Source: a virus. Taken from it: a DNA stretch of 64,000 bases. Shown here piece after piece: positions 9,140-56,309 of the stretch (within the stretch, counting starts at the first letter, position 1; every line of letters begins with the position of its first letter). The stretch lies in IMG/VR virus record IMGVR_UViG_3300009508_000011, positions 62,001-126,000 of that record; one strand, given 5' to 3'. A program made the position numbers and the translations under genes. Under the pieces are notes generated by a model. It did no database searches. It had not been told where the DNA came from and worked only from the letters and a program-made list of their open reading frames with translations.

Positions 9140-11035
9140 TTACCATTTGGTACGAGCGTTTTGGTTTGTGTATCCACCACGAGCGCCACCGAATTGGTTT
9201 TGCTGATTGAACATACCAGAGTGTTGGTTGCCTTGGCTTGCAAAACGTTGGTAGTTAGTAGTTGGACGTGTACCAGTAGTCATGTCTTGGTAAACACCTT
9301 CTGGACGTACGTTAGCACCGGCTGCTGCACATGCTTTAGCAAGAGCTAAGATGAAATCACTTGTGAAATCAACACGACGAGAGTAACCAGTAACATGTAC
9401 GTTACCTTCACCAAGTAAACCACGTAAGATGTTAAGACGACGTTGTAGACGCATGTCTTCCGCAACGTTAGTCGCAGTGAATGTATCAACGTAATCGGTA
9501 ACCACTTGTAAATCGCTACCACCTTGTAGGTTAAGCATTGCCAAGTAATCGATTTCACGTAGGTCTTTCTTGTTACCATCTTGGTCGATGTAGTAACCGT
9601 TATGTACACGAGTTACGTCACCAGTGAACAATTGTCCACCTTGGAAGATGTTAGAGAAGTTACCGTTAGTAAGGTTGTCCGCTGCTTCAACTAAAGTTTG
9701 GGCTGCTTTCTGGTTACCACATGCCGCATCAATCATGATGTGTTGTACCCAAGTCATTGGGCCAGCTTCTGCGATATCCATAGAGTATACCAAGTTAGGG
9801 AATACAGCTACGCCAAGTAGTTGTAACAACATTGCAGGAGTGAAGTCTGCTGCTTTGGTGTCAACTTCTACGTCAGCTAATGCTGGACATTCGTACTTAA
9901 CAGCACCAACATCATGCATGTCCGTACCTTTAACATTGTAATTAGGTAAGAACGCACGAGCCCAGTTATGTTCTTCATCAAGGATTGCTGCATTAGCAAG
10001 ACCTTGTAATTGAAGTTCAAGACTAACTGAATCAATACCGTGAGTGATACCAGTCATGATGAAGCGTGGAATGTAACATTGAGTTACTGGTGCTTGTTGA
10101 GCACCCCATGCTTGTGGTTGATTAGCTGGAGCTGATGGCTGACCGAACACGTTTTGTTGTTGTGGTGGTGCAGTGTAAATCAAATCCATGTAACCAGTAG
10201 TTTCAGCAATCATTACTGACTGTTGTCCCCAACCTTCATCTTGACCACCTTGGTTAGCCGTAGCTTTCATTCCGATTTGAATATCAGAACGTACGATTTC
10301 ACCAGTGCCAGATTCAGTGCTAGTCGCCATGAAGTCAAGACGTGCACTTACAGTTTCTTGCTGTGGGTCCCACATTGTTACGCTGTATTTTTCTTCAACG
10401 CCACCAAGAACACGGTCAAGTAAACCAATGTTAGAGTTACTTACGTCGAAAATGATATTGTGTAAACGAGGCTCATCTTCATGGCTAAGGCCACGAGGAA
10501 TTACAACTACACCAGCTTCATGTAATTGTGCGCCTTGCGGGAAGTGACCAGATAATACTTCAGTGATTACATGCCATAACTTATCAGTTTGGATATCACC
10601 TGCAACACGCTCAACTTCAACGTTAACGCCATTGATGTTGTTTTGACGCGGGGCTAATGCTTCACCAGAATCTTCAAGTACGATAGCAGTTACTGCAACT
10701 AAGTCAGCATCTGGTACTTTAGTACATGCAAGAATCATTGAGTAAGGTAAGCCGTAACCATCACGCTCAACAGCAATGAACTTAAGGTCATCAGCTTCTT
10801 GTGCTTCAAGGATTGCTTGGAATGCTTGTACATAAGCAGTTAAGTTCTTACCAGTACCTGTACGGCTGATAGAACGACGTAAACGTGAACTTGCACCAAT
10901 GATACCAGCGCGAGGAGCAGTTTGTTCTGCGGCAGATTGAGTAGCTTGCTCAGTCTGTTCACTAGCACCTGCTTGCTTGAAAGCGTCTTTCATTGCGTTG
11001 TTACCAGGGGCTGCATTTTTGTCTTTGATTGACAT
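9140..11035 (-). CDS. chmA: Chimallin-like phage nucleus shell protein
   Basis: 631 residues (about 69 kDa), matching the roughly 70 kDa size of chimallins, which self-assemble into the protein shell that encloses replicating phage DNA. The N-terminus (DKNAAPGNNAM, later RLRRSISRTGTGKNLTAYVQ) and the flexible Q/N/G-rich C-terminal tail (from about 595) fit my recollection of phiKZ-family shell proteins. The gene is monocistronic, with a strong terminator and a long structured leader. Its base composition is richer in GC than its neighbours, as expected for a heavily expressed gene. An RNA polymerase beta-prime gene lies downstream, as in phiKZ gp54-gp55. Identity rests on memory of the family and synteny; a profile search would settle it. 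Confidence 0.82.
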   Translation of the reverse strand: MSIKDKNAAPGNNAMKDAFKQAGASEQTEQATQSAAEQTAPRAGIIGASSRLRRSISRTGTGKNLTAYVQAFQAILEAQEADDLKFIAVERDGYGLPYSMILACTKVPDADLVAVTAIVLEDSGEALAPRQNNINGVNVEVERVAGDIQTDKLWHVITEVLSGHFPQGAQLHEAGVVVIPRGLSHEDEPRLHNIIFDVSNSNIGLLDRVLGGVEEKYSVTMWDPQQETVSARLDFMATSTESGTGEIVRSDIQIGMKATANQGGQDEGWGQQSVMIAETTGYMDLIYTAPPQQQNVFGQPSAPANQPQAWGAQQAPVTQCYIPRFIMTGITHGIDSVSLELQLQGLANAAILDEEHNWARAFLPNYNVKGTDMHDVGAVKYECPALADVEVDTKAADFTPAMLLQLLGVAVFPNLVYSMDIAEAGPMTWVQHIMIDAACGNQKAAQTLVEAADNLTNGNFSNIFQGGQLFTGDVTRVHNGYYIDQDGNKKDLREIDYLAMLNLQGGSDLQVVTDYVDTFTATNVAEDMRLQRRLNILRGLLGEGNVHVTGYSRRVDFTSDFILALAKACAAAGANVRPEGVYQDMTTGTRPTTNYQRFASQGNQHSGMFNQQNQFGGARGGYTNQNARTKW

Positions 11036-25283: not shown

Positions 25284-26252
25284 ATGATTGTTTTTACTTG
25301 TGTAAATAAAGAAAGTGAAGACGCAGCGGTTATTTGGGCTGCTTCTTTATCTAAGGCATTGAAAGGTGGTAATGGTGGAGTTAAGACTTACATGTTCCAT
25401 ACCCCAGATGTCAATGTATCACGGTTCACTGACTTCAATGTATTCTGTGTATCCATAGGTGATATGTCTAACCTTACTCGTAAAGAAGTACTGGTTAAAG
25501 TATTGGACATGATGCATGAACGTTCTTTCGGTGAAAAGGTATTCTACACGGATACTGATGTACTATGGCAGAATCATCTTGACGAGTTAAAATCAGCTCC
25601 CTTAAATAGTAAGGTTTGGCTGGCAGCTCGTAACGACTTAGTCTTCTATGACCAAGAACGTAACAAGAAGTTCTACCCTCACTACGACCCTGAGTTTGAA
25701 CGTAAGTTAATGATTCACCCAGATGGCTATCTGAATAGTGATGTATTGTATATCTTCCTTGAAGGTATGTACGCAGCTCTACGTTCTAAGGGATTCACTT
25801 CTATGGATGAATTCTATCAGCAGTGTAAGGCTAAGAACAACTACTCGGTAGAGGATTGTTTCAATCTAATTGCTGGTGAGTATGTTAACTTGTTTGACAG
25901 ATACAATGCCTTCGCTGAAGATGTGTTCGAATTAGACTTTGGTGAGATGTTGGGTAGACGTGCGGATATTCGTAATTCACACCTCATTAACTTTCGTGGT
26001 GTACATAAACCATGGCGTGAATGTAGTGACTTCGATTTACCTGAACTGGCTGGTGCTCAGTACCCTTACGACTTTTACTTAGCAGCTTGTGAAATGTTCC
26101 GTACATATATCACAACAGACTTCCTCGAAAAGGTTAGAGCAAACGCTAAACGCTATAGCCTGATTAATGACTGGGATAGAGAAATTCTAGCTAAGTCAGG
26201 ACCATTGAAGAAGAAGTTATCTGAGTTTAAAGAACAACTTAAGAATCAGTAG
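25284..26252 (+). CDS. GT8-like glycosyltransferase
   Basis: 322 residues. FYTDTD at 87-92 is the metal- and nucleotide-sugar-binding DxD motif; YLNSDVLYI (about 154-162) matches the conserved N-S/A-G block; HLINFRGVHKPW (about 236-247) matches the HFxGxxKPW block near the end of GT8 enzymes. These retaining enzymes transfer glucose or galactose-type sugars, for example onto LPS. Ribosome-binding site GAGGAAG. Last gene of the operon, followed by a bidirectional terminator. Confidence 0.82.
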   Translation: MIVFTCVNKESEDAAVIWAASLSKALKGGNGGVKTYMFHTPDVNVSRFTDFNVFCVSIGDMSNLTRKEVLVKVLDMMHERSFGEKVFYTDTDVLWQNHLDELKSAPLNSKVWLAARNDLVFYDQERNKKFYPHYDPEFERKLMIHPDGYLNSDVLYIFLEGMYAALRSKGFTSMDEFYQQCKAKNNYSVEDCFNLIAGEYVNLFDRYNAFAEDVFELDFGEMLGRRADIRNSHLINFRGVHKPWRECSDFDLPELAGAQYPYDFYLAACEMFRTYITTDFLEKVRANAKRYSLINDWDREILAKSGPLKKKLSEFKEQLKNQ

Positions 26253-27387: not shown

Positions 27388-27837
27388 CTAGTCTGGTTGA
27401 TAAAAGTTAATAGTGACGTTATCTTGGCATAAGTAATGTTCGACCATAGGACGAACTTCATTTATATCCAATCCTCCAGCACCACACCCTAGCGGGGGTA
27501 CGTGAAATTCATCTATAGGAGTCCTAGGTATACAACTACCCAGTTTCTCTAAGTTGTCTTGCACCCATTCTAACTTACTTGAGTTCCGCCATTCATACTT
27601 AGTTGGGAAAAGTAGTATAGCGTAATTATCCTTTATCAAATAAAGTTTTAATGTGTTTATCTTAAAATCACCCTTTCTACAAATAGAACGGTAATCCCTA
27701 AAGATATCGGGGTATCTGTCTTTACATTCCTTTGCTAGACCTAACCCCATTACACCCACGCAATTCACAGGAATAAGGACAATACCGGAATCGTTATCCC
27801 ATATGTCCTCACCAGTCCTTAAAACGAGTCCTGACAT
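27388..27837 (-). CDS. Macro-domain protein, possible ADP-ribose hydrolase
   Basis: 149 residues, a single macro domain. The N-terminal DSGIVLIPVNCVGVMGLGLA (about 16-35) is the N-x-x-G-x-MG-x-G-x-A ADP-ribose-binding pattern, and VPPLGCGAGGLD (about 113-124) is the second conserved loop. Relatives (DarG, Poa1p, TARG1) remove ADP-ribose from DNA or proteins. In a phage this could reverse host ADP-ribosyltransferase defence such as DarT, or salvage ADP-ribose; both are inference. The start lies inside the preceding small gene. Confidence 0.85.
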   Translation of the reverse strand: MSGLVLRTGEDIWDNDSGIVLIPVNCVGVMGLGLAKECKDRYPDIFRDYRSICRKGDFKINTLKLYLIKDNYAILLFPTKYEWRNSSKLEWVQDNLEKLGSCIPRTPIDEFHVPPLGCGAGGLDINEVRPMVEHYLCQDNVTINFYQPD

Positions 27838-35324: not shown

Positions 35325-36797
35325 TTAACAACCAGTTAGGCTGCCTGTACCACCAGACCAAGTACCACACTGTTTAGAGTATGTGCCATCTGGGTTATAA
35401 GTAGTAACTGTATATTCATCTTGCGAGTTGTGCATATGCACTTCTTGAGTAGCGTTCCAGAACTCTTCAGAGTCGTAACGGTTATCAATACGATACCATG
35501 AATCAGCATCGTAACCGTAGTCATCTTCGAAGCTAAGTGAAATGTGATTAAGGTTACTAGATAACCAACCACCACTAACCTGACTTGTATCCGCGCCAAT
35601 TAGTTCATTGTAACGGAATTCATTGTCTACGCCATAGCTATGGGCAGATTCTGTTTTAACCGTATCGCCATCACTGTAGAAAGTTTTGGTAATGAATTCT
35701 TGACTAAGATTATTTGCAACTCTGTCTACATCTATACATGTATTCCAATCGACGTCCAATGCTCCTGCAATGTTTGCTAGTGCATAACCAACTTCACCAT
35801 CGGATTCAGTATAGTATTCAGCTACTGTACAAACATTATTAACTAGGCTAACCGCCAGTTGAAACTCTAGACCATCGCGTATACTTGTACGTTGTTGATA
35901 CTTAGAAATTAAAGCACCTACCTTTTCCAAGTCGCTACTAACTTCGTTTGTTTGTTCCATCCAGTTACCTTCCGTATGTTTAACGTATTCTAAACGGTTC
36001 CATGTAGTATCTAGATAGTATTCAACATAAGCGTAACTTGCATCAGGATTAGCCTTTTCTACCACTAGAGTCTCCTCGTATGATTTAGCTAAGCCAGGTA
36101 CAAGAGATTGTGCAACACCATGAAGTTCTGTGTTAGCAGTAGATACGAAATCACTGTATAGTTCATCTACAGTAACATTGTAACGTTGTGCAACACGCTT
36201 TTCTTGGTCACGTAATCTTTGGTCTATTACTTTACGAAGTTCCTGCTCCTCTACAATAGAGGCGCACGATAGTTCCTTAGACTGCGCTGCTTGTAGTTCT
36301 TTCTCAACAACATTCCAGATTACTGTAGTAAGTGGCGTAACGTTAATTAAGTCAGTGTCAGTAGCAACGGCAAACGAAGGTGGATAAACTATCGTATAAG
36401 CTTCTTCGATTGGTGTATCAGGGAAATCAAGGTCAATGGCTCCAGCAGGTACATGAACAACCATTGGTACATATTGACCACAGTCTTCATGTTCCACAGG
36501 TACTTCCAACGTCCAGCTAGACGCCAAAGATGGGTCTTGACTATCTGATGGTTCTTTCGTAACTGTATTGGGCTCCCCATCATCCAGTTCACCATTAAAG
36601 TTTAAATCCATAAACATTGTGGCACCAACTAAGTAGCCGTCAATTGCCATACCGTGTATCTTAGTTAGTTCCGTCTTTGGAGGTGTAACAACCGATACTG
36701 GTGGTGTTTCTGTTTTGGTATCACTACCGCCACCGCCACATGCAACTAGAGTAGACATAGCGATAGTTAGTAAACTTGTTTTCATTAAAGATTTCAT
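35325..36797 (-). CDS. Large surface-type lipoprotein
   Basis: 490 residues. The lipobox LVAC, with Cys20 followed by GGGGSD, is typical of outer-membrane or surface lipoproteins in Vibrio, Shewanella and similar bacteria. An EF-hand-like calcium loop (DLNFNGELDDGE, about 64-75) and a Ser/Thr/Asp-rich body follow. It looks like a host gene acquired by the phage. Exposed on the infected cell, it could block receptors against superinfection; that is inference. An upstream AAAGGAA ribosome-binding site supports the ATG at 36797. Confidence 0.85.
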   Translation of the reverse strand: MKSLMKTSLLTIAMSTLVACGGGGSDTKTETPPVSVVTPPKTELTKIHGMAIDGYLVGATMFMDLNFNGELDDGEPNTVTKEPSDSQDPSLASSWTLEVPVEHEDCGQYVPMVVHVPAGAIDLDFPDTPIEEAYTIVYPPSFAVATDTDLINVTPLTTVIWNVVEKELQAAQSKELSCASIVEEQELRKVIDQRLRDQEKRVAQRYNVTVDELYSDFVSTANTELHGVAQSLVPGLAKSYEETLVVEKANPDASYAYVEYYLDTTWNRLEYVKHTEGNWMEQTNEVSSDLEKVGALISKYQQRTSIRDGLEFQLAVSLVNNVCTVAEYYTESDGEVGYALANIAGALDVDWNTCIDVDRVANNLSQEFITKTFYSDGDTVKTESAHSYGVDNEFRYNELIGADTSQVSGGWLSSNLNHISLSFEDDYGYDADSWYRIDNRYDSEEFWNATQEVHMHNSQDEYTVTTYNPDGTYSKQCGTWSGGTGSLTGC

Positions 36798-41034: not shown

Positions 41035-42006
41035 TTATTTTTGTACTACACCGACCACCGTATCATTTTCAGTAACGATTAATCGAGTAACTCTATTCGC
41101 TTCCATGATTTCCAAAGCCTCACCAAAGCGAGAACTTTTATCCACCGTTTTAGGGTGGGCCGTCATGAAATCAAATACTTCTGTACTAATGGGTTTACCA
41201 ACATTAGCCTGTAGACAGCGACGTAAGTCACCATCCGTGATGATACCTTCCAATCTATGGCGGTTACCAACCAGAGCCATGCCTAGTCTACCCCTACTAA
41301 TGTGCCACATGACATCAGCGAGTTCCATGTCCTTTGTAACAAAGGGCAAGTCTTCTGAGCGCATAACGTCTTCAACGCGACACAATAGTTTCTTACCAAG
41401 AGACCCACCGGGATGAAATCTTGCGAAGTCTTCCGGTTTAAAATCACGAGCATTCAATAGGGCTACCGTAATAGCGTCACCAAGGGCCATAGCAGCCGTT
41501 GTAGAGCTAGTTGGTGCCAATTGTAAAGGACAGGCCTCTGTAGTAACACCTGCTCTTAAACTGACTGTAGAGGCTTTGGCTAAAGTATTGTCGTGGTTCT
41601 TAGTAATTGAAATGATAACGTTACCATTATCTTCCAAGAAAGAAAGTAACTTAAGTACTTCCTCAGTCTCGCCAGAATTACTCAAGGCGAGAAATACGTC
41701 GTTGGGTTGCACCATACCTAAGTCACCATGAAAGGCTTCTCCGGGATGCATGAAGAACGATGGTGTTCCAGTAGATGCTAAACTAGCAGCTATCTTTTTA
41801 CCAACTATACCAGACTTACCCATACCACAAACAATTACACGGCCGTTTGTTTGTAGTATTTTACTAATAGCGGTAACGAAACTAACGGAGTCTTCACGTA
41901 GATTATCCGCTAATTCATTTAGGCCTTCTATCTCATTATAGATAGCATCTAAGCCATGTTTAACTGACTTAGTTAAATTACCACCCACTACTACTGGATT
42001 TATCAT
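41035..42006 (-). CDS. kdsD: D-arabinose 5-phosphate isomerase, KdsD/KpsF family
   Basis: 323 residues, close to E. coli KdsD (328). N-terminal SIS domain: GMGKSGIVGKKIAASLASTG (61-80), HPGEAFHGDLGM (87-98) with its conserved histidines, and LSNSGETEE (108-116). The FHPGGSLGK block (about 198-206) links to two CBS repeats (about 213-320), as in bacterial enzymes. It converts ribulose 5-phosphate to arabinose 5-phosphate, the first step toward Kdo. The ATG overlaps the KdsB stop by four bases (ATGA), indicating coupling. Confidence 0.93.
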   Translation of the reverse strand: MINPVVVGGNLTKSVKHGLDAIYNEIEGLNELADNLREDSVSFVTAISKILQTNGRVIVCGMGKSGIVGKKIAASLASTGTPSFFMHPGEAFHGDLGMVQPNDVFLALSNSGETEEVLKLLSFLEDNGNVIISITKNHDNTLAKASTVSLRAGVTTEACPLQLAPTSSTTAAMALGDAITVALLNARDFKPEDFARFHPGGSLGKKLLCRVEDVMRSEDLPFVTKDMELADVMWHISRGRLGMALVGNRHRLEGIITDGDLRRCLQANVGKPISTEVFDFMTAHPKTVDKSSRFGEALEIMEANRVTRLIVTENDTVVGVVQK

Positions 42007-42803
42007 TGGTCTAGCCTCATTCGTTTAACGGTCGCTTCGTAGTCAGCTTGTGTATCTACACCATGCTTAGGTTCTATCAGCGCCGTCATAGCTTTTATAG
42101 TCATTCCGTTTTCGAGTGCTCTTAGCTGTTCTAGTCCCTCAGTCTGTTCAAGTACTGATGGTGGTAACTTACTAAATTTCCTCAGGGTTTTTACGGTGTA
42201 CCCATACATACCGACATGTCTGTAATATTTAAAATCTTCTACGGTGTTCCTCACGTAGGGGGCAGAGGCCCTAGTAAATAATAGTGCATGGTCTTTTATA
42301 CCAGTTACTACTTTAACAACATTAACATTATTTAAATCTGAAATATCACTTACCTCAGTCTTTAAAGTAACTATGTCGGCATTACTATACTTAGTAGCTA
42401 TAGCTAACTGCTTTATTAACATAGGGTCTATTTCAGGTTCGTCACCCTGAACATTCAACACTACGGTATCGTCAGATAGTCTTAATTTATCACAAGCCTC
42501 TAATAACCTATCGGTTCCAGAGTTATGAAATGGACTAGTTAGTATAGTAGGAACTCCGTGTTTGGATAGTGCCTTGGTTATAGATTTATGGTCTACTGCA
42601 ACCATAACCTTACCTTTACCTATTCCAGCTTTCTTACAAGCATTATACACATGCCACACAAGTGGCTTACCATTAATAGGTAATAGTACCTTACCCGGTA
42701 ATCTGGTAGAACTTATTCTGGCTGGGATTATAACCACCACACCAGAACTATCTTTCTTGAACCATTTAAACTTACCGAGTATAGCATTAAAAATCTTTCT
42801 CAT
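42003..42803 (-). CDS. kdsB: CMP-Kdo synthetase
   Basis: 266 residues. IPARISSTRLPGK (26-38) is the CTP-binding signature of KdsB; LNVQGDEPEI (about 115-124) is the conserved catalytic Asp block; ASAPYVR and YRHVGMYGY, EQLRALENG and the final GVDTQADYE also match. It has an extra basic, hydrophobic N-terminus of about 20 residues compared with E. coli KdsB (248). It activates Kdo with CTP to form CMP-Kdo, the donor for LPS and capsule Kdo transfer. Ribosome-binding site GGGGA. Operon with kdsD. Confidence 0.94.
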   Translation of the reverse strand: MRKIFNAILGKFKWFKKDSSGVVVIIPARISSTRLPGKVLLPINGKPLVWHVYNACKKAGIGKGKVMVAVDHKSITKALSKHGVPTILTSPFHNSGTDRLLEACDKLRLSDDTVVLNVQGDEPEIDPMLIKQLAIATKYSNADIVTLKTEVSDISDLNNVNVVKVVTGIKDHALLFTRASAPYVRNTVEDFKYYRHVGMYGYTVKTLRKFSKLPPSVLEQTEGLEQLRALENGMTIKAMTALIEPKHGVDTQADYEATVKRMRLDQ

Positions 42804-42989: not shown

Positions 42990-43124
42990 ATGAAGGAATC
43001 AAGTCTACCTATAATAATAGTAACGTTGTGTATTTTTTATTCGGTTTATTTACTTGGGCAAAAAAAAAGAAAGGGGACCAGCCCCCCTTTCTTTTACTCT
43101 TACTCTGAAACGGGAGTAGCTTAA
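42990..43124 (+). CDS. Possible small membrane protein
   Basis: 44-codon frame with a good TAGGAG ribosome-binding site. Residues 5-24 (SLPIIIVTLCIFYSVYLLGQ) form a membrane helix. The second half of the frame runs through a strong terminator hairpin (43061-43095), so it may be chance. Low confidence. Confidence 0.35.
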   Translation: MKESSLPIIIVTLCIFYSVYLLGQKKRKGTSPPFFYSYSETGVA

Positions 43125-43131
43125 GCTCCCT
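43060..43131. terminator. Two tandem hairpins, the first a bidirectional terminator
   Basis: GAAAGGGG/CCCCTTTC (43069-43091), flanked by nine A upstream and TTTT downstream, followed by GGGAG/CTCCC (43112-43130). They separate the spacer from the fibre operon. Confidence 0.75.
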
Positions 43132-43198
43132 ATAATAATAACGGTACTGTGTAATAAAATACTTTTTCTATGATGGCTAACAAATCTGGAGTAGAGGC

Positions 43199-47305: not shown

Positions 47306-47701
47306 CTAACGTCTTGTTACAAAAAAACCAGCAGCCATACCAATCACGATATAGAGCGGTAAATCATCAAAGAATGCCATTTGTTCTTCCATTGGCAATT
47401 CAGATATGTAGTTAATGCCATATACACCTAAGGCACCAAGTACTAAAATAATTACTATTAAGAGACTGTTAAAACCAAGTCCGTACCTATCAGATACACG
47501 ACGAGTGGGTTTACCATCTTTATTAGTTGTCCAATTGTCGCCCTTACGATGACGGTCCGTAGGTATTGGCGCACAGGATGGCCATACCGTTGAGCTATCC
47601 ATACCAGATATAAATGTAGTGTTAGTGAATTTGGACACTTGTTCAGTATCTATCTCATTCCACTTGGTTATCTTTTCAGCATTGTTATTCTGATTGTTCA
47701 T
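47306..47701 (-). CDS. Unknown 131-aa protein with two C-terminal membrane spans
   Basis: Hydrophilic first 75 residues, then two hydrophobic segments (about 78-94, LLIVIILVLGALGVYGI, and 112-128, LPLYIVIGMAAGFFVT) and an Arg end. The ATG overlaps the QueC-like gene's stop by 17 bases. Probably an inner-membrane protein with a cytoplasmic domain. Function unknown. Confidence 0.7.
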   Translation of the reverse strand: MNNQNNNAEKITKWNEIDTEQVSKFTNTTFISGMDSSTVWPSCAPIPTDRHRKGDNWTTNKDGKPTRRVSDRYGLGFNSLLIVIILVLGALGVYGINYISELPMEEQMAFFDDLPLYIVIGMAAGFFVTRR

Positions 47702-48776
47702 TGGTTGCTTCCCCAGTCCGTTGATGAACCAGCTCTATATGGTCATTCAACTCTACGTCATAGTACCCATTGTCTACTAGGTACGTTAATTTACGAGCCT
47801 TGTATTCAGACCCATTTACGATAATACTATCAGATGGCAATTCTTCCATATGTTCAAAGTCAACATCGTTTAATGTTGTTCCTGTACACATACCAAGATA
47901 GATGACCACTATACTATCTATAGTTACCTTTAGTGGGTTACTACCACGGTAGAATGTATCCGTCCCATCACCAAACTCAGCTTCAATAGTAATGTAAAAA
48001 CTATTTACAGATTCTGTTTCTTTAACATATACTAACCTGCGAGCTTTATCCTCAACGGAACTAGTAAGTAAGGAGGCGAAGGCATCTTTACCGTTTTTAC
48101 TATCTGCCCTAGGTTGCAATATACTTAATCCGGCACCATGAGATGCTATGCATGATGGACAAGTACCGCAACCATAGATAACTCCACCAATTTTAGTAGT
48201 CTGTTCACAGAACGACACATAATCGATAATTGGTTTCATTCTATTTGATTCGGTGTATCCATGAATCCATTCCGCAACAGTTGCCTTACTGGTCTTTGTG
48301 AGTGGAAATATTAATTCAGGTAACTTAGCCTTGTCCTTTATATTCCACCCCATTGACTTCCATTGTTTCTTTAGATTGGGAATCATCATGATGTTATCAT
48401 CAGATACGGCACCTATAGCTACGTAGTCTGTATCCATAGGAGTTAATAGAGACGACAGGTAAAGCCACAGTTGTTTCTGTGACCATCTAAAATTATTGGG
48501 CCACGCTAAGAAACCATCTATACTAGGAAACTTAAATGTTTGAAACTTAATCTTGTCGTATAAATCTGAATCTCGTATGGCAGTCTTTATTAGATGTCTG
48601 CTATATTTCTCATGATTAGGGTTGGGCATGTTTTCAGCCTGTATACTAAGTGCAGTTACCTCAGCGCCAGCATCCGCCATCGCCAGTAACAGACCAGTTG
48701 AATCCAATCCACCTGACCAAGGTATAACTACCTTCTTACCCTTAAACTTCTTAAGGTTGGGCATTTTATCAAACAT
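47685..48776 (-). CDS. queC: QueC-like PP-loop ATPase
   Basis: 363 residues; ATG at 48776 preferred (TAGGTAA upstream). VVIPWSGGLDST (16-27) is the PP-loop signature of N-type ATP pyrophosphatases, and a Cys cluster FCEQTTK...YGCGTCPSC (about 207-227) matches the zinc site of QueC. QueC makes preQ0 for queuosine or for 7-deazaguanine DNA modification in phages. The C-terminal 130 residues have no counterpart in QueC (about 230 aa). Other pathway genes (queD, queE, dpdA) are not in this window. A related PP-loop function cannot be excluded. Confidence 0.72.
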   Translation of the reverse strand: MFDKMPNLKKFKGKKVVIPWSGGLDSTGLLLAMADAGAEVTALSIQAENMPNPNHEKYSRHLIKTAIRDSDLYDKIKFQTFKFPSIDGFLAWPNNFRWSQKQLWLYLSSLLTPMDTDYVAIGAVSDDNIMMIPNLKKQWKSMGWNIKDKAKLPELIFPLTKTSKATVAEWIHGYTESNRMKPIIDYVSFCEQTTKIGGVIYGCGTCPSCIASHGAGLSILQPRADSKNGKDAFASLLTSSVEDKARRLVYVKETESVNSFYITIEAEFGDGTDTFYRGSNPLKVTIDSIVVIYLGMCTGTTLNDVDFEHMEELPSDSIIVNGSEYKARKLTYLVDNGYYDVELNDHIELVHQRTGEATNEQSE

Positions 48777-49260
48777 CACTATTACCTACAAATTGACGAC
48801 AAGGTATTTCCTTATCTATTAAAAACTTCTTACCATCATGTTTGGTGTAATCGTTATCATCTGGTAAGCTATCTGGACTACTTAGGAAATCATTTAGATA
48901 CCAGACTTCCTTAATACCAAGAAGATATAAACTTTTAGCACATTCGATACACGGAGCATGGGTTAGGAATACTATACCACCAGTTGCAACTATTCCAGTC
49001 CTAGATAGTTTATCCAGTGAATTACGTTCTGCATGGATTACCTCTGGTCTAGTCTTACCTGCTAATGTAGGATGGTCTAAATCATATTCACATTTATTGG
49101 AAGAACCTGGAGGCATACCGTTCCAACCTACTGAGATTAAACCATTGGTTGTGACCAATACACTACCAACCTTTCTCTTTTCAGCAGCGGACTCCTGAGA
49201 GCACCTAACGGCCATGTCCATGTACAATTGAAAGTACTTGGACTTAAGTGGGTCTATCAT
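48769..49260 (-). CDS. dCMP deaminase-like protein
   Basis: 163 residues. Zinc-binding HAE (76-78) and APCIECAKSLY (102-112) form the cytidine/deoxycytidylate deaminase site; CEYDLDH (57-63) is the additional region typical of dCMP deaminases. It deaminates dCMP to dUMP, feeding thymidylate synthase. Ribosome-binding site AGGAA. Overlaps the QueC-like gene by 8 bases. Confidence 0.88.
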   Translation of the reverse strand: MIDPLKSKYFQLYMDMAVRCSQESAAEKRKVGSVLVTTNGLISVGWNGMPPGSSNKCEYDLDHPTLAGKTRPEVIHAERNSLDKLSRTGIVATGGIVFLTHAPCIECAKSLYLLGIKEVWYLNDFLSSPDSLPDDNDYTKHDGKKFLIDKEIPCRQFVGNSDV

Positions 49261-54137: not shown

Positions 54138-56309
54138 TTAACAATAGACCACTTCCGCATCTGGATGACGTTCTAGGAATTTATCCGTAGAAGTCTTCTT
54201 AGAATAGGATGGCTTATTATTAGCCTTGCTCTCTTCGGCGCTTCTAACTAACTCATCGTAAGTTAAAGGTACACCGCCATCGTCCTGACTAATTGCAACG
54301 AGGTACTTCAGAGTCTGCTCTACACGAACTCTTGAGAATGCGTCATTAATTGTACTTAGTTGTTCCTTAAGTCTATCAATCTCATCTCTAAGTTCTTTCT
54401 GTTCCTGCTGTGCCATAACTTGTTGTTCAGTAAGTTTGTTACCATCTTTACCAGCAAGGCGCATACAGTCACGTGGGTCAATTCCGTAGTACTGCAAGTT
54501 CTTACCTTTCATGATAAACCAACCAGCTAATAACCAAGATATAACCATATCATCGTGCCCTGATGAAGTATGGTCTATACGACCGTTCTTAACAACAAGA
54601 GACCTGATTTGGTCAGACAGCACTTTACAATGAACAGAGCCACCGGCGCGTTTTGCAAGTTCAGGTAGAATGTTAACGTATAGTTCCTTACGTGACTCAG
54701 CAGTAGTGACAAAACCAAACTTAGTTTTGATTGCTTCGTAGAAGAAACTAGAGCGAGTAGCTAAAGGAGTATTAAGCATAGCTTGTAACTTCTTATCACC
54801 AGCTGCTTCATTAACCACTGTATTGTAAATACGAGTGAATGGGTCTATACCATGTTTAGGTAACTCTATCAGTAAGGTCTCTAGGAAAGTTATACCAGAT
54901 GACTTACGTTCGATGTTGATAGTGATGTTTCTGTACTTCACCATTAGTTCAACAACGTATAGGGCTAACGTTAGTATATAGGATTCATTCATGGCCGCTG
55001 TGGCCACTACAGACATGTCTGTGATGTCCATTAATACTAAACCTGTATCATCCCTACCTACCAATTCAGATGTATCCATACCTAATACGAAGTTACCATT
55101 GAGCATACGCTCTTCTATTTCTTCTTCTGGAATTAACCAGTTGAATAGATAACCGTCCTTAGATATAGAACTATGTTGATATTCAATTTCCGAATCTTTG
55201 ATAAGGTCATTAAGTTTAGGGGATAGCGGAGAACGTAGTGTACCAGAAGTCCATACGTTGAAGAAATCTCGGTCAGCCTCATCTCCCACGGCATTTGTGT
55301 TTGATAATACATCACGTAACCAAGCATCGTCTTTACCGACCTGTCTATGTGAGAACGTACCATTGATAAGAGGTTTCTTACCCTTAGAGTTCTTACGCAC
55401 GACTTTATGTAGTGTTTTAGTATCAGGTAGGTCAAAGTACATCTCAGACCAGATAGCACCACCGTGTATAAGGTCGTACATGTATTTACCATCACGGTCA
55501 TCTTTCTTACCAGCTGTTGTGGTAAAGATGTTTCCGTAAGGTTGGTTATTTATCTCAGCTTCTTCACGAGCAGCTGTAGTAGATGCAAGCATTGCAGGAA
55601 TGATTGTACCAATGAATTTAATGAATGGACCTTCATCAATATGGATTATAGGTGAAGTAAGTCCACGACCAACATTAAGTGCAGCAGCTTCTGAAGATTG
55701 TGCTACAGATGTGTTGTATTTATTACCACGTTCATTGTAAGTGATTTGTTGCTGGTTATCAGCATCGTTACGGTGAACACGTAAGTACTCTGGTAATAAG
55801 TTGATAATGTTTTTAATACGTTCAACGTTGGCAACACGTAGACCATTATCTTTGGTCAACATGTTAATCTTAGAGTTCCATAGTTTAAATAGTTCTAACC
55901 AAACTATTAATAAATCGGTACCTAGTGATTTACCCAACTGACGAGGCATGATTAAAGCAAAGTCAACGTTATTAAAGAAAGAGAAATATAATGCAACGTT
56001 AGCACGATTTAATCTATACTGATTTGGTTTCATACCGGCTTGTGCAGGTACTCTAGCAATCTCTCTGAAGAAATACCAAGGATTATGTTGAATCTCTTGG
56101 GCCACCATTGTCTTCTGTCGTTCTGTTAGAGTTTTTGAATAGGGGTCTACTCCCTGAAGCTCCGGCTGTAACAACACTAAAGGAAAGTAACAGTTCTCAA
56201 TACCCATTGACCTATAAAGGCCAACTAGATTAAGTGCTGATTGATTTTTAGTCTTAGTGTCTATCATGGCCGAGGGATAACGAGCATAGTCTTGTTTAAA
56301 GAGTATCAT
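54138..56309 (-). CDS. terL: Large terminase subunit (TerL)
   Basis: 723 residues. ATPase: Walker A PRQLGKS at 122-128, Walker B IIHIDE at 221-226, coupling motif TTTAG at 263-267. RNase H-like nuclease: MDTSELVGRD with Asp412, a central acidic residue in NIERKSSG near 465-472, and GHDDMVIS (584-591) with the final Asp pair. A C-terminal coiled coil (about 622-655) is extra and may contact the portal or partners. It cuts and packages the concatemeric phage DNA. Ribosome-binding site AAAAGG. Confidence 0.95.
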   Translation of the reverse strand: MILFKQDYARYPSAMIDTKTKNQSALNLVGLYRSMGIENCYFPLVLLQPELQGVDPYSKTLTERQKTMVAQEIQHNPWYFFREIARVPAQAGMKPNQYRLNRANVALYFSFFNNVDFALIMPRQLGKSLGTDLLIVWLELFKLWNSKINMLTKDNGLRVANVERIKNIINLLPEYLRVHRNDADNQQQITYNERGNKYNTSVAQSSEAAALNVGRGLTSPIIHIDEGPFIKFIGTIIPAMLASTTAAREEAEINNQPYGNIFTTTAGKKDDRDGKYMYDLIHGGAIWSEMYFDLPDTKTLHKVVRKNSKGKKPLINGTFSHRQVGKDDAWLRDVLSNTNAVGDEADRDFFNVWTSGTLRSPLSPKLNDLIKDSEIEYQHSSISKDGYLFNWLIPEEEIEERMLNGNFVLGMDTSELVGRDDTGLVLMDITDMSVVATAAMNESYILTLALYVVELMVKYRNITINIERKSSGITFLETLLIELPKHGIDPFTRIYNTVVNEAAGDKKLQAMLNTPLATRSSFFYEAIKTKFGFVTTAESRKELYVNILPELAKRAGGSVHCKVLSDQIRSLVVKNGRIDHTSSGHDDMVISWLLAGWFIMKGKNLQYYGIDPRDCMRLAGKDGNKLTEQQVMAQQEQKELRDEIDRLKEQLSTINDAFSRVRVEQTLKYLVAISQDDGGVPLTYDELVRSAEESKANNKPSYSKKTSTDKFLERHPDAEVVYC

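Follow-up and report, generated by a model that had tools for sequence, protein, structure and literature searches.

A kdsB-kdsD gene pair conserved in three nucleus-forming phages, with a putative role in CMP-Kdo supply

The bacterial outer membrane depends on the sugar Kdo. KdsD starts the pathway towards it, and the CMP-Kdo synthetase step has been described as rate-limiting for LPS synthesis, the half-life of CMP-Kdo being 34 min (PMC3149649), although this rate-limiting status is disputed by a pathway model that places control elsewhere at substrate excess (PMC4412817). Viral kdsA and kdsB have been reported as auxiliary genes in marine viromes (PMC10653327, PMC9529941). In RB69 and its relatives, a homolog of arabinose 5-phosphate (A5P) isomerase has been speculated to feed UDP-arabinose synthesis, and RB69 arabinosylates its DNA (PMC6024577). 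LPS matters to nucleus-forming phages: infection by one of them, PCH45, is affected by LPS genes, host kdsD among them, and LPS plays a part in its adsorption (PMC11797060). In the literature we found no paper on a phage kdsD-kdsB operon.

The stretch of DNA analysed here (the window, 64,000 nucleotides) covers bases 62001-126000 of a virus record of 206,117 bp. The source genome looks complete because a 123-bp direct terminal repeat lies at the ends of the record. Megablast against annotated phages returned no match for the source genome. The ChmA shell protein that marks the Chimalliviridae is encoded (phrog_4795), and its presence together with PhuZ and a phiKZ-like terminase points to a nucleus-forming jumbo phage (Table 1). 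By gene content, the source phage is nucleus-forming and phiKZ-like; it is well separated from the annotated nucleus-forming phages. The host is taken to be a Gram-negative bacterium.

Table 1. Positions of the features discussed, counted from the first base of the window
Feature	Position	Strand	Evidence or remark
ChmA, nuclear shell protein	9140..11035	-	phrog_4795, 2.6e-93; 126 phage records matched
PhuZ, phage tubulin	20101..21090	-	phrog_4733, 5.6e-87
GT8-like glycosyltransferase candidate, only sugar transferase found	25284..26252	+	PF01501, 18.2 bits, E=0.002; cutoff 24.3
Third gene of putative operon, 239 aa	40295..41014	-	Starts 20 nt past kdsD; retained beside kdsBD in both relatives (41-67% identity)
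kdsD: putative D-arabinose 5-phosphate isomerase (KpsF/GutQ/KdsD type), SIS + CBS pair, 323 aa	41035..42006	-	TIGR00393, SIS, CBS
C-terminal CBS domain of KdsD, cut short ahead of the Asp conserved in the last CBS motif (E. coli D321)	41035..41178	-	
ATGA stop/start overlap, kdsB into kdsD	42003..42006	-	Read from sequence
kdsB: putative 3-deoxy-manno-octulosonate cytidylyltransferase (CMP-Kdo synthetase), 266 aa	42003..42803	-	TIGR00466, PF02348, PDB matches
N-terminal extension of KdsB, ~20 aa, basic and hydrophobic, MRKIFNAILGKFKWFKKDSS	42744..42803	-	~19 aa longer than E. coli KdsB
Palindrome TTTCATGAAA	42967..42976	-	Between promoter-like element and kdsB
Promoter-like element AAAAAATACACAACGTTACTATTATTATAG	43009..43038	-	Upstream of kdsB; element of same kind upstream of kdsB in both relatives
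Terminase large subunit, phiKZ-like	54138..56309	-	41-48% identity to phiKZ-like jumbo phages (PhiPA3, Noxifer, pEa_SNUABM_54, others)

Several other genes on the minus strand of the window were recorded. A QueC-like protein of 364 aa (47685-48779; PF06508 just above cutoff) is clustered with dCMP deaminase, thymidylate synthase and DHFR, and a weak macro-domain match (27388-27837; PF01661, E=7e-4), present in both relatives described below, is possibly tied to ADP-ribose or NAD-based defence. The product of the gene at 33930-34670 matches the DNA/RNA non-specific endonucleases (PF01223, 2e-34), has a signal-peptide-like start and is predicted to be secreted; it shares 66% identity with its counterpart in each relative and, if periplasmic, could destroy the DNA of competing phages. 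A putative lipoprotein of 490 aa (35325-36797), with an LVAC lipobox, a GGGG linker and no Pfam match, is also found in both relatives and is a possible surface exclusion protein.

The kdsD and kdsB genes of the original prediction, with their coordinates and ATGA overlap, were exact and were confirmed by sequence and profile matches. Through this overlap, kdsB and kdsD are predicted to be translationally coupled. Searches of Pfam, PHROGs, PDB sequences and annotated phages found nothing resembling the product of the third gene, and its AlphaFold model was of low confidence (mean pLDDT 55). An element resembling AAAAAATACACAACGTTACTATTATTATAG also sits 182 nt upstream of chmA in the source genome; the promoter function of such elements is putative, because their genome-wide count exceeds shuffles only modestly. 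Each of the three genomes has the palindrome TTTCATGAAA ahead of kdsB, and it is nearly confined to that site, with 1, 2 and 1 occurrences in the respective genomes. Early expression of kdsBD from these shared upstream elements is our guess. An Rfam search of the kdsBD locus returned one chance-level match and nothing more. Further upstream on the same strand (~43065-43150), a promoter-like TTATTATTATAGGGAG precedes a strong terminator hairpin by no more than ~90 nt; this arrangement recurs in one relative (locus L014) and could be a small RNA gene.

To assign the kdsB product, we compared it with profiles, solved structures and cellular proteins. It scored above the cutoff of the equivalog model TIGR00466 (210.1 bits; cutoff 155.2), also passed NF003952 and matched Pfam CTP_transf_3 (PF02348) with 164 bits. 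The best matches among solved structures were KdsB proteins (to 7e-51, PDB sequences), identity to E. coli K-12 KdsB was 41%, and PHROGs held no KdsB family matching the phage protein. When 68 cellular KdsBs were aligned with the three phage proteins, 45 columns were at least 95% conserved in the cellular set; all three phages were identical to the cellular residue in 41 of these columns and carried conservative swaps in the other 4, and catalytic residues had not been lost. The metal-binding Asp121 and Asp250, together with Lys38 and Arg29, were invariant in phage KdsB, and in E. coli K-12 numbering the phage KdsBs keep K19, D100 and D235; K19 and two strictly conserved Asp residues holding Mg-A have been described for KdsB (PMC3149649). 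By family and by its conserved CTP-, metal- and Kdo-site residues, the identification of the phage protein as KdsB, CMP-Kdo synthetase (EC 2.7.7.38), is well supported.

The basic, hydrophobic N-terminal extension claimed for KdsB proved real and was found in all three phages, the relatives carrying extensions similar in kind (MKQLIRKLLGIKPP and MKRLLESILVVLGIKRRA), with a plausible ribosome-binding site preceding the kdsB ATG in each genome. Phage KdsB has 26 residues ahead of the PAR motif, compared with 6-11 in most cellular KdsBs. The hydrophobic moment of the extension (0.53) was reached by 5% of shuffles, and those of the relatives were weaker (10 and 19%). Because this moment is only modestly above shuffles, we regard an amphipathic anchor as a possible function of the extension.

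The kdsD product exceeded the TIGR00393 KpsF/GutQ cutoff (338.2 bits; cutoff 203.7), matched SIS (1e-26) and CBS in Pfam, and found its best solved-structure matches among KdsD-type isomerases (3e-45, PDB sequences). Its NF008141 score of 306.9 bits was below the cutoff of 505, and we therefore describe it as a KdsD-like A5P isomerase, not as the enterobacterial equivalog; identity to E. coli K-12 KdsD was 45%. In an alignment with 41 cellular proteins, 85 columns were at least 90% conserved. All three phage KdsDs carry K64, E116, E157 and H198, corresponding to E. coli K59, E111, E152 and H193, which we take to be SIS active-site residues, and the remaining SIS active-site region is also kept. 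As with KdsB, loss of catalytic residues was not seen, and an A5P isomerase of the KdsD/KpsF/GutQ family with its catalytic residues intact is a well-supported assignment.

Both enzymes had been called complete, which holds for KdsB, and for KdsD except at its C-terminus: all three phage KdsDs end in VVGVV(Q/K)K, about 9 residues short of most cellular KdsDs. The Asp equivalent to D321 is present in 95% of the 41 cellular KdsDs and missing from all three phages, and the Pfam CBS match reaches only position 46 of 57; none of the three has a complete CBS pair, the end of CBS2 being absent. The nearest bacterial KdsDs (L209, L210 and L214) are also rather short, yet they keep the Asp. Because CBS2 concerns regulation and SIS-only A5P isomerases exist, the phage protein stays in the catalytic family despite its short CBS2. 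The terminal Asp of CBS domains commonly binds the ribose of the nucleotide ligand, and PDB 3K2V and 4O9K are presumably KdsD CBS pairs crystallised with CMP-Kdo. The missing CBS2 end may weaken feedback on the phage KdsD.

To assess conservation, we compared the source genome with two collinear complete relatives, IMG/VR 3300020375_000001 (207,748 bp) and 3300002038_000006 (218,099 bp). In both, 190 of 233 ORFs were matched, and the direct terminal repeats of the three genomes measured 123, 77 and 39 bp. In both relatives kdsB-kdsD keeps its order and location, the same third gene comes next, and kdsB and kdsD overlap at the same junction (1 nt in L013, 11 nt in L014). Identity to the source phage was 52 and 62% for KdsB in the two relatives and, in the same order, 72 and 67% for KdsD. 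Between the source phage and L014, codon positions 1, 2 and 3 differed in 0.30, 0.17 and 0.59 of codons in kdsB and in 0.27, 0.16 and 0.53 in kdsD, and this concentration of differences at third positions is the pattern of purifying selection on both genes. Since order, coupling and place are kept in two complete relatives, chance is excluded, and the pair appears as a stable, selected module. Immediately ahead of kdsB, both relatives have two small genes of similar appearance (L013 8185-9003, L014 7979-8758) that are absent from the source genome. A fourth contig of the clade (L258, 73.5 kb) encodes ChmA and no kdsB; by position it stops short of the kdsBD locus and is uninformative on presence. 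An IMG/VR KdsD match (L015/L121) was set aside as partial, at a contig end by a cysteinyl-tRNA synthetase-like gene, and is probably a prophage flank.

This conservation bears on whether the pair could be passive cargo, that is, recently acquired host genes or assembly contamination without function for the phage. 'Stuffer' genes are possible in large phage genomes (a view cited in PMC9529941), but three complete, diverged genomes retain the frames, catalytic residues, coupling and place, with changes mostly at third positions, and there is no close bacterial donor, the best bacterial matches being 58% identical for KdsD and below 50% for KdsB. We consider passive cargo highly unlikely.

Trees of KdsD (by IQ-TREE) and KdsB were then compared. 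The phage KdsDs grouped together (100/100) within the bacterial two-domain KdsDs. Their closest neighbours, at moderate support (89/81), were two gammaproteobacterial KdsDs (58 and 51% identical) whose genes adjoin waaA-like and gmhB-like genes, these adjoining genes being named by eye from sequences. The SIS-only isomerases sampled from viruses other than RB69 (LR756500, L067, L077, L085 and L115) formed a separate, distant clade in this tree. Judging by the tree, the phage KdsD descends from a bacterial two-domain KdsD and not from SIS-only phage isomerases. The phage KdsBs likewise grouped together (100/100); they fell outside the clade of Pseudomonadota KdsBs (98/98) and had no resolved sister in a tree whose bootstrap had not settled. 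On the question of an origin in the host lineage, which the original prediction had proposed to examine with such trees, KdsD shows a moderately supported grouping with gammaproteobacterial KdsDs, and KdsB points to no donor. Given these differing tree positions, kdsB and kdsD may come from different donors, or kdsB may have diverged fast.

The tree also bears on a role in DNA modification, in which the isomerase would make arabinose 5-phosphate for arabinosylation of phage DNA, as proposed for RB69, and the KdsB-like enzyme would activate a pentose. The RB69 precedent speaks for it, as does RB69 ORF055c, which is 36-39% identical to the SIS domain of the phage KdsD. However, the phage KdsD is of the two-domain bacterial type, far from the sampled SIS-only phage proteins, and the positions conserved among cellular KdsBs are retained in phage KdsB. 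By tblastn, the three genomes held no homologs of RB69 ORF003c (candidate arabinosyltransferase), ORF053c/052c or ORF051c, and the absence of ORF003c and ORF053c/052c led us to reject RB69-type arabinosylation on gene content. The only gene found of the thymidylate synthase family looks ordinary; DHFR adjoins it, dCMP deaminase lies nearby, and nothing suggests a dCMP hydroxymethylase. Nucleus-forming phages shield their DNA inside a protein nucleus (PMC11797060). DNA modification is therefore a very improbable role; the two-domain KdsD and the missing rest of the RB69 module favour LPS (or capsule) instead.

To determine whether the phages encode the other steps, we searched the whole source genome and both relatives. 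No match was found in any of the three for KdsA (PF00793), KdsC (TIGR01670), GT2 (PF00535), KpsC/S (PF05159) or WaaA (PF04413), whereas the E. coli controls were positive. The CMP-Kdo pathway is thus incomplete in all three complete genomes, with KdsA and KdsC missing, and the genome-wide search for kdsA, kdsC and a Kdo transferase of the tested families found none. KdsA and KdsC had been placed outside the window, in the host or elsewhere in the phage; their absence from the window stands, but the 206-kb search leaves no place for them elsewhere in the genome. With KdsA, KdsC and every tested Kdo transferase family missing, all three functions must come from the host.

The single GT8-like gene is present in all three phages, 15 kb from kdsBD on the opposite strand. 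Against PF01501 (cutoff 24.3), its ortholog in one relative (G002) scored 31.4 bits and that in the other (G001) gave no match. The protein carries DxD (YTDTDVLW), LNSDV and HKPW motifs, the first Asp of DxD being His in the G001 ortholog. Its one relevant PDB match, to LgtC, was weak, its structure prediction was poor (mean pLDDT 45), and it had no relative among annotated phages. The GT8 family uses UDP-sugars, not CMP-Kdo. The proposal that the pair supplies the phage's own glycosyltransferases accordingly found little support, with no Kdo-transferase or GT2 family found and the family of the lone GT8-like candidate using UDP-sugars.

Two further explanations for the pair can be weighed against this gene content. 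In the first, kdsBD would feed CMP-Kdo to a Kdo-linked host capsule (KpsF/KpsU type) and not to LPS. KpsF is the capsule paralog of KdsD, which counts for this explanation. KpsU is likewise a capsule paralog of KdsB (PMC3149649), and the position of phage KdsB outside the Pseudomonadota clade is in keeping with it. Nevertheless, KpsC/KpsS were not found in the three phage genomes, and the closest KdsDs adjoin waaA-like and gmhB-like genes, i.e. LPS genes, so we hold a capsule role to be unlikely. In the second, a surface change for exclusion, the main purpose would be an envelope altered via Kdo content and/or a hexose added by the GT8-like protein, and not a larger amount of LPS, so that competing phages could no longer bind. 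The GT8-like gene is kept in all three phages, and the conserved genes within ~10 kb of kdsBD include those for an Endonuclease_NS nuclease predicted to be secreted, for a lipoprotein and for a secreted lytic transglycosylase; these neighbours are consistent with an envelope-directed region, but are no proof of one. LPS clusters of jumbo phages have also been proposed to mask receptors from rivals (PMC13282480). Weighing against exclusion are the distance and opposite strand of the GT8-like gene, the His in its DxD motif in one relative and the lack of a Kdo transferase of the tested families in the phages, and we regard it as a tentative possibility.

The reading we prefer, at a probability of about 0.62, is that kdsBD is an auxiliary metabolic operon that would increase the supply of CMP-Kdo to the host's own LPS machinery; the phage thereby probably boosts or alters the host surface during replication. 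The sequences themselves establish what the genes are, that their active sites are intact, that three phages conserve them and that the middle enzymes are missing; from this we infer enzyme activity, an increase in CMP-Kdo, an effect on LPS and a benefit to the phage. KdsD would divert ribulose 5-phosphate from the pentose phosphate pathway to arabinose 5-phosphate, host KdsA and KdsC would turn this into Kdo, and phage KdsB would activate Kdo with CTP to CMP-Kdo, short-lived and spent by the host Kdo transferase on new Kdo-lipid A. Because no Kdo-using phage enzyme was found, the fate of CMP-Kdo would rest on the host. The most likely benefit would be continued or altered outer-membrane (LPS) synthesis through a long infection in which host gene expression has already been taken over; such synthesis would keep the envelope intact and may conceal receptors from rival phages. 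The absence of an evident common donor of KdsB and KdsD and the disputed rate-limiting status of CMP-Kdo synthesis count against the supply reading. If this reading is correct, the phage would contribute the entry reaction together with the reaction regarded as rate-limiting, and leave the middle steps to the host, an economical form of flux control, and would be a case of a nucleus-forming phage investing in the host outer membrane instead of DNA metabolism or defence.

Additionally, the shared loss of the CBS2 end would point to escape from feedback. More speculatively, and doubtful as a combination, the KdsD with its short CBS2 could be freed from feedback by CMP-Kdo while the extension tethers KdsB to the inner membrane, next to the Kdo transferase. 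An unregulated KdsD and a membrane-held KdsB would together give nucleus-forming phages a deregulated CMP-Kdo supply, channelled at the membrane and adapted to their infection.

KdsB relatives are encoded in at least 285 IMG/VR stretches. Loci such as L048-L114 form a large viral-only KdsB clade (28 tree rows, 99/93), apart from cellular and present-phage KdsBs. In L064, L078, L086, L095, L097 and L107, all viral contigs, KdsB forms the C-terminal portion of a longer reading frame; the first ~325 residues of these frames begin with a (K/Q)(I/V)LDCTLRDGGYYT-type motif and are DRE-TIM metallolyase-like, suggesting a viral fusion protein. A viral KdsB of another lineage (L103, IMG/VR 3300020716_000087) has a similar basic, hydrophobic N-terminal extension (MEKLLRILFWGKIRRERK).

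Compared with the known systems, the phage genes share families, domain order and catalytic residues with bacterial kdsD and kdsB of E. coli K-12, but form one coupled pair without kdsA and kdsC, with a KdsD lacking the CBS2 end and a KdsB bearing an N-terminal extension. A direct kdsB-kdsD order occurs in one sampled gammaproteobacterium, as kdsC-kdsB-kdsD (L244). The huge phage LR756500 (462 kb, metagenome) likewise has kdsB directly before an isomerase; it differs in having a KdsA-like gene and GT2-like and pyruvyl transferase-like genes nearby, in an isomerase that is SIS-only behind an unrelated N-terminal domain, and in a KdsB placed among Bacteroidota sequences. Synechococcus phage S-SCSM2R, with an annotated KdsB-KdsA, similarly carries CMP-Kdo genes, whereas its KdsB and those of marine viromes belong to other lineages (the large viral-only clade), usually as kdsB alone or with kdsA, and are not known from nucleus-forming phages. 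RB69-type phages (Mosigvirus and relatives) also encode a protein of the A5P isomerase family, but it is SIS-only, ~210 aa long and next to a nucleotidyltransferase-like gene proposed for DNA arabinosylation, with no KdsB. The phiKZ-like Chimalliviridae have ChmA, PhuZ and TerL in common with the source phage, and differ in that none is among the six annotated-phage records with KdsB. While kds genes are already known from viromes, a huge phage and a cyanophage, and the literature found gives viral kds genes only as virome list entries, what is new here is that nucleus-forming phages carry the kdsB-kdsD pair, that three complete genomes conserve it as an operon and that CBS2 is truncated.
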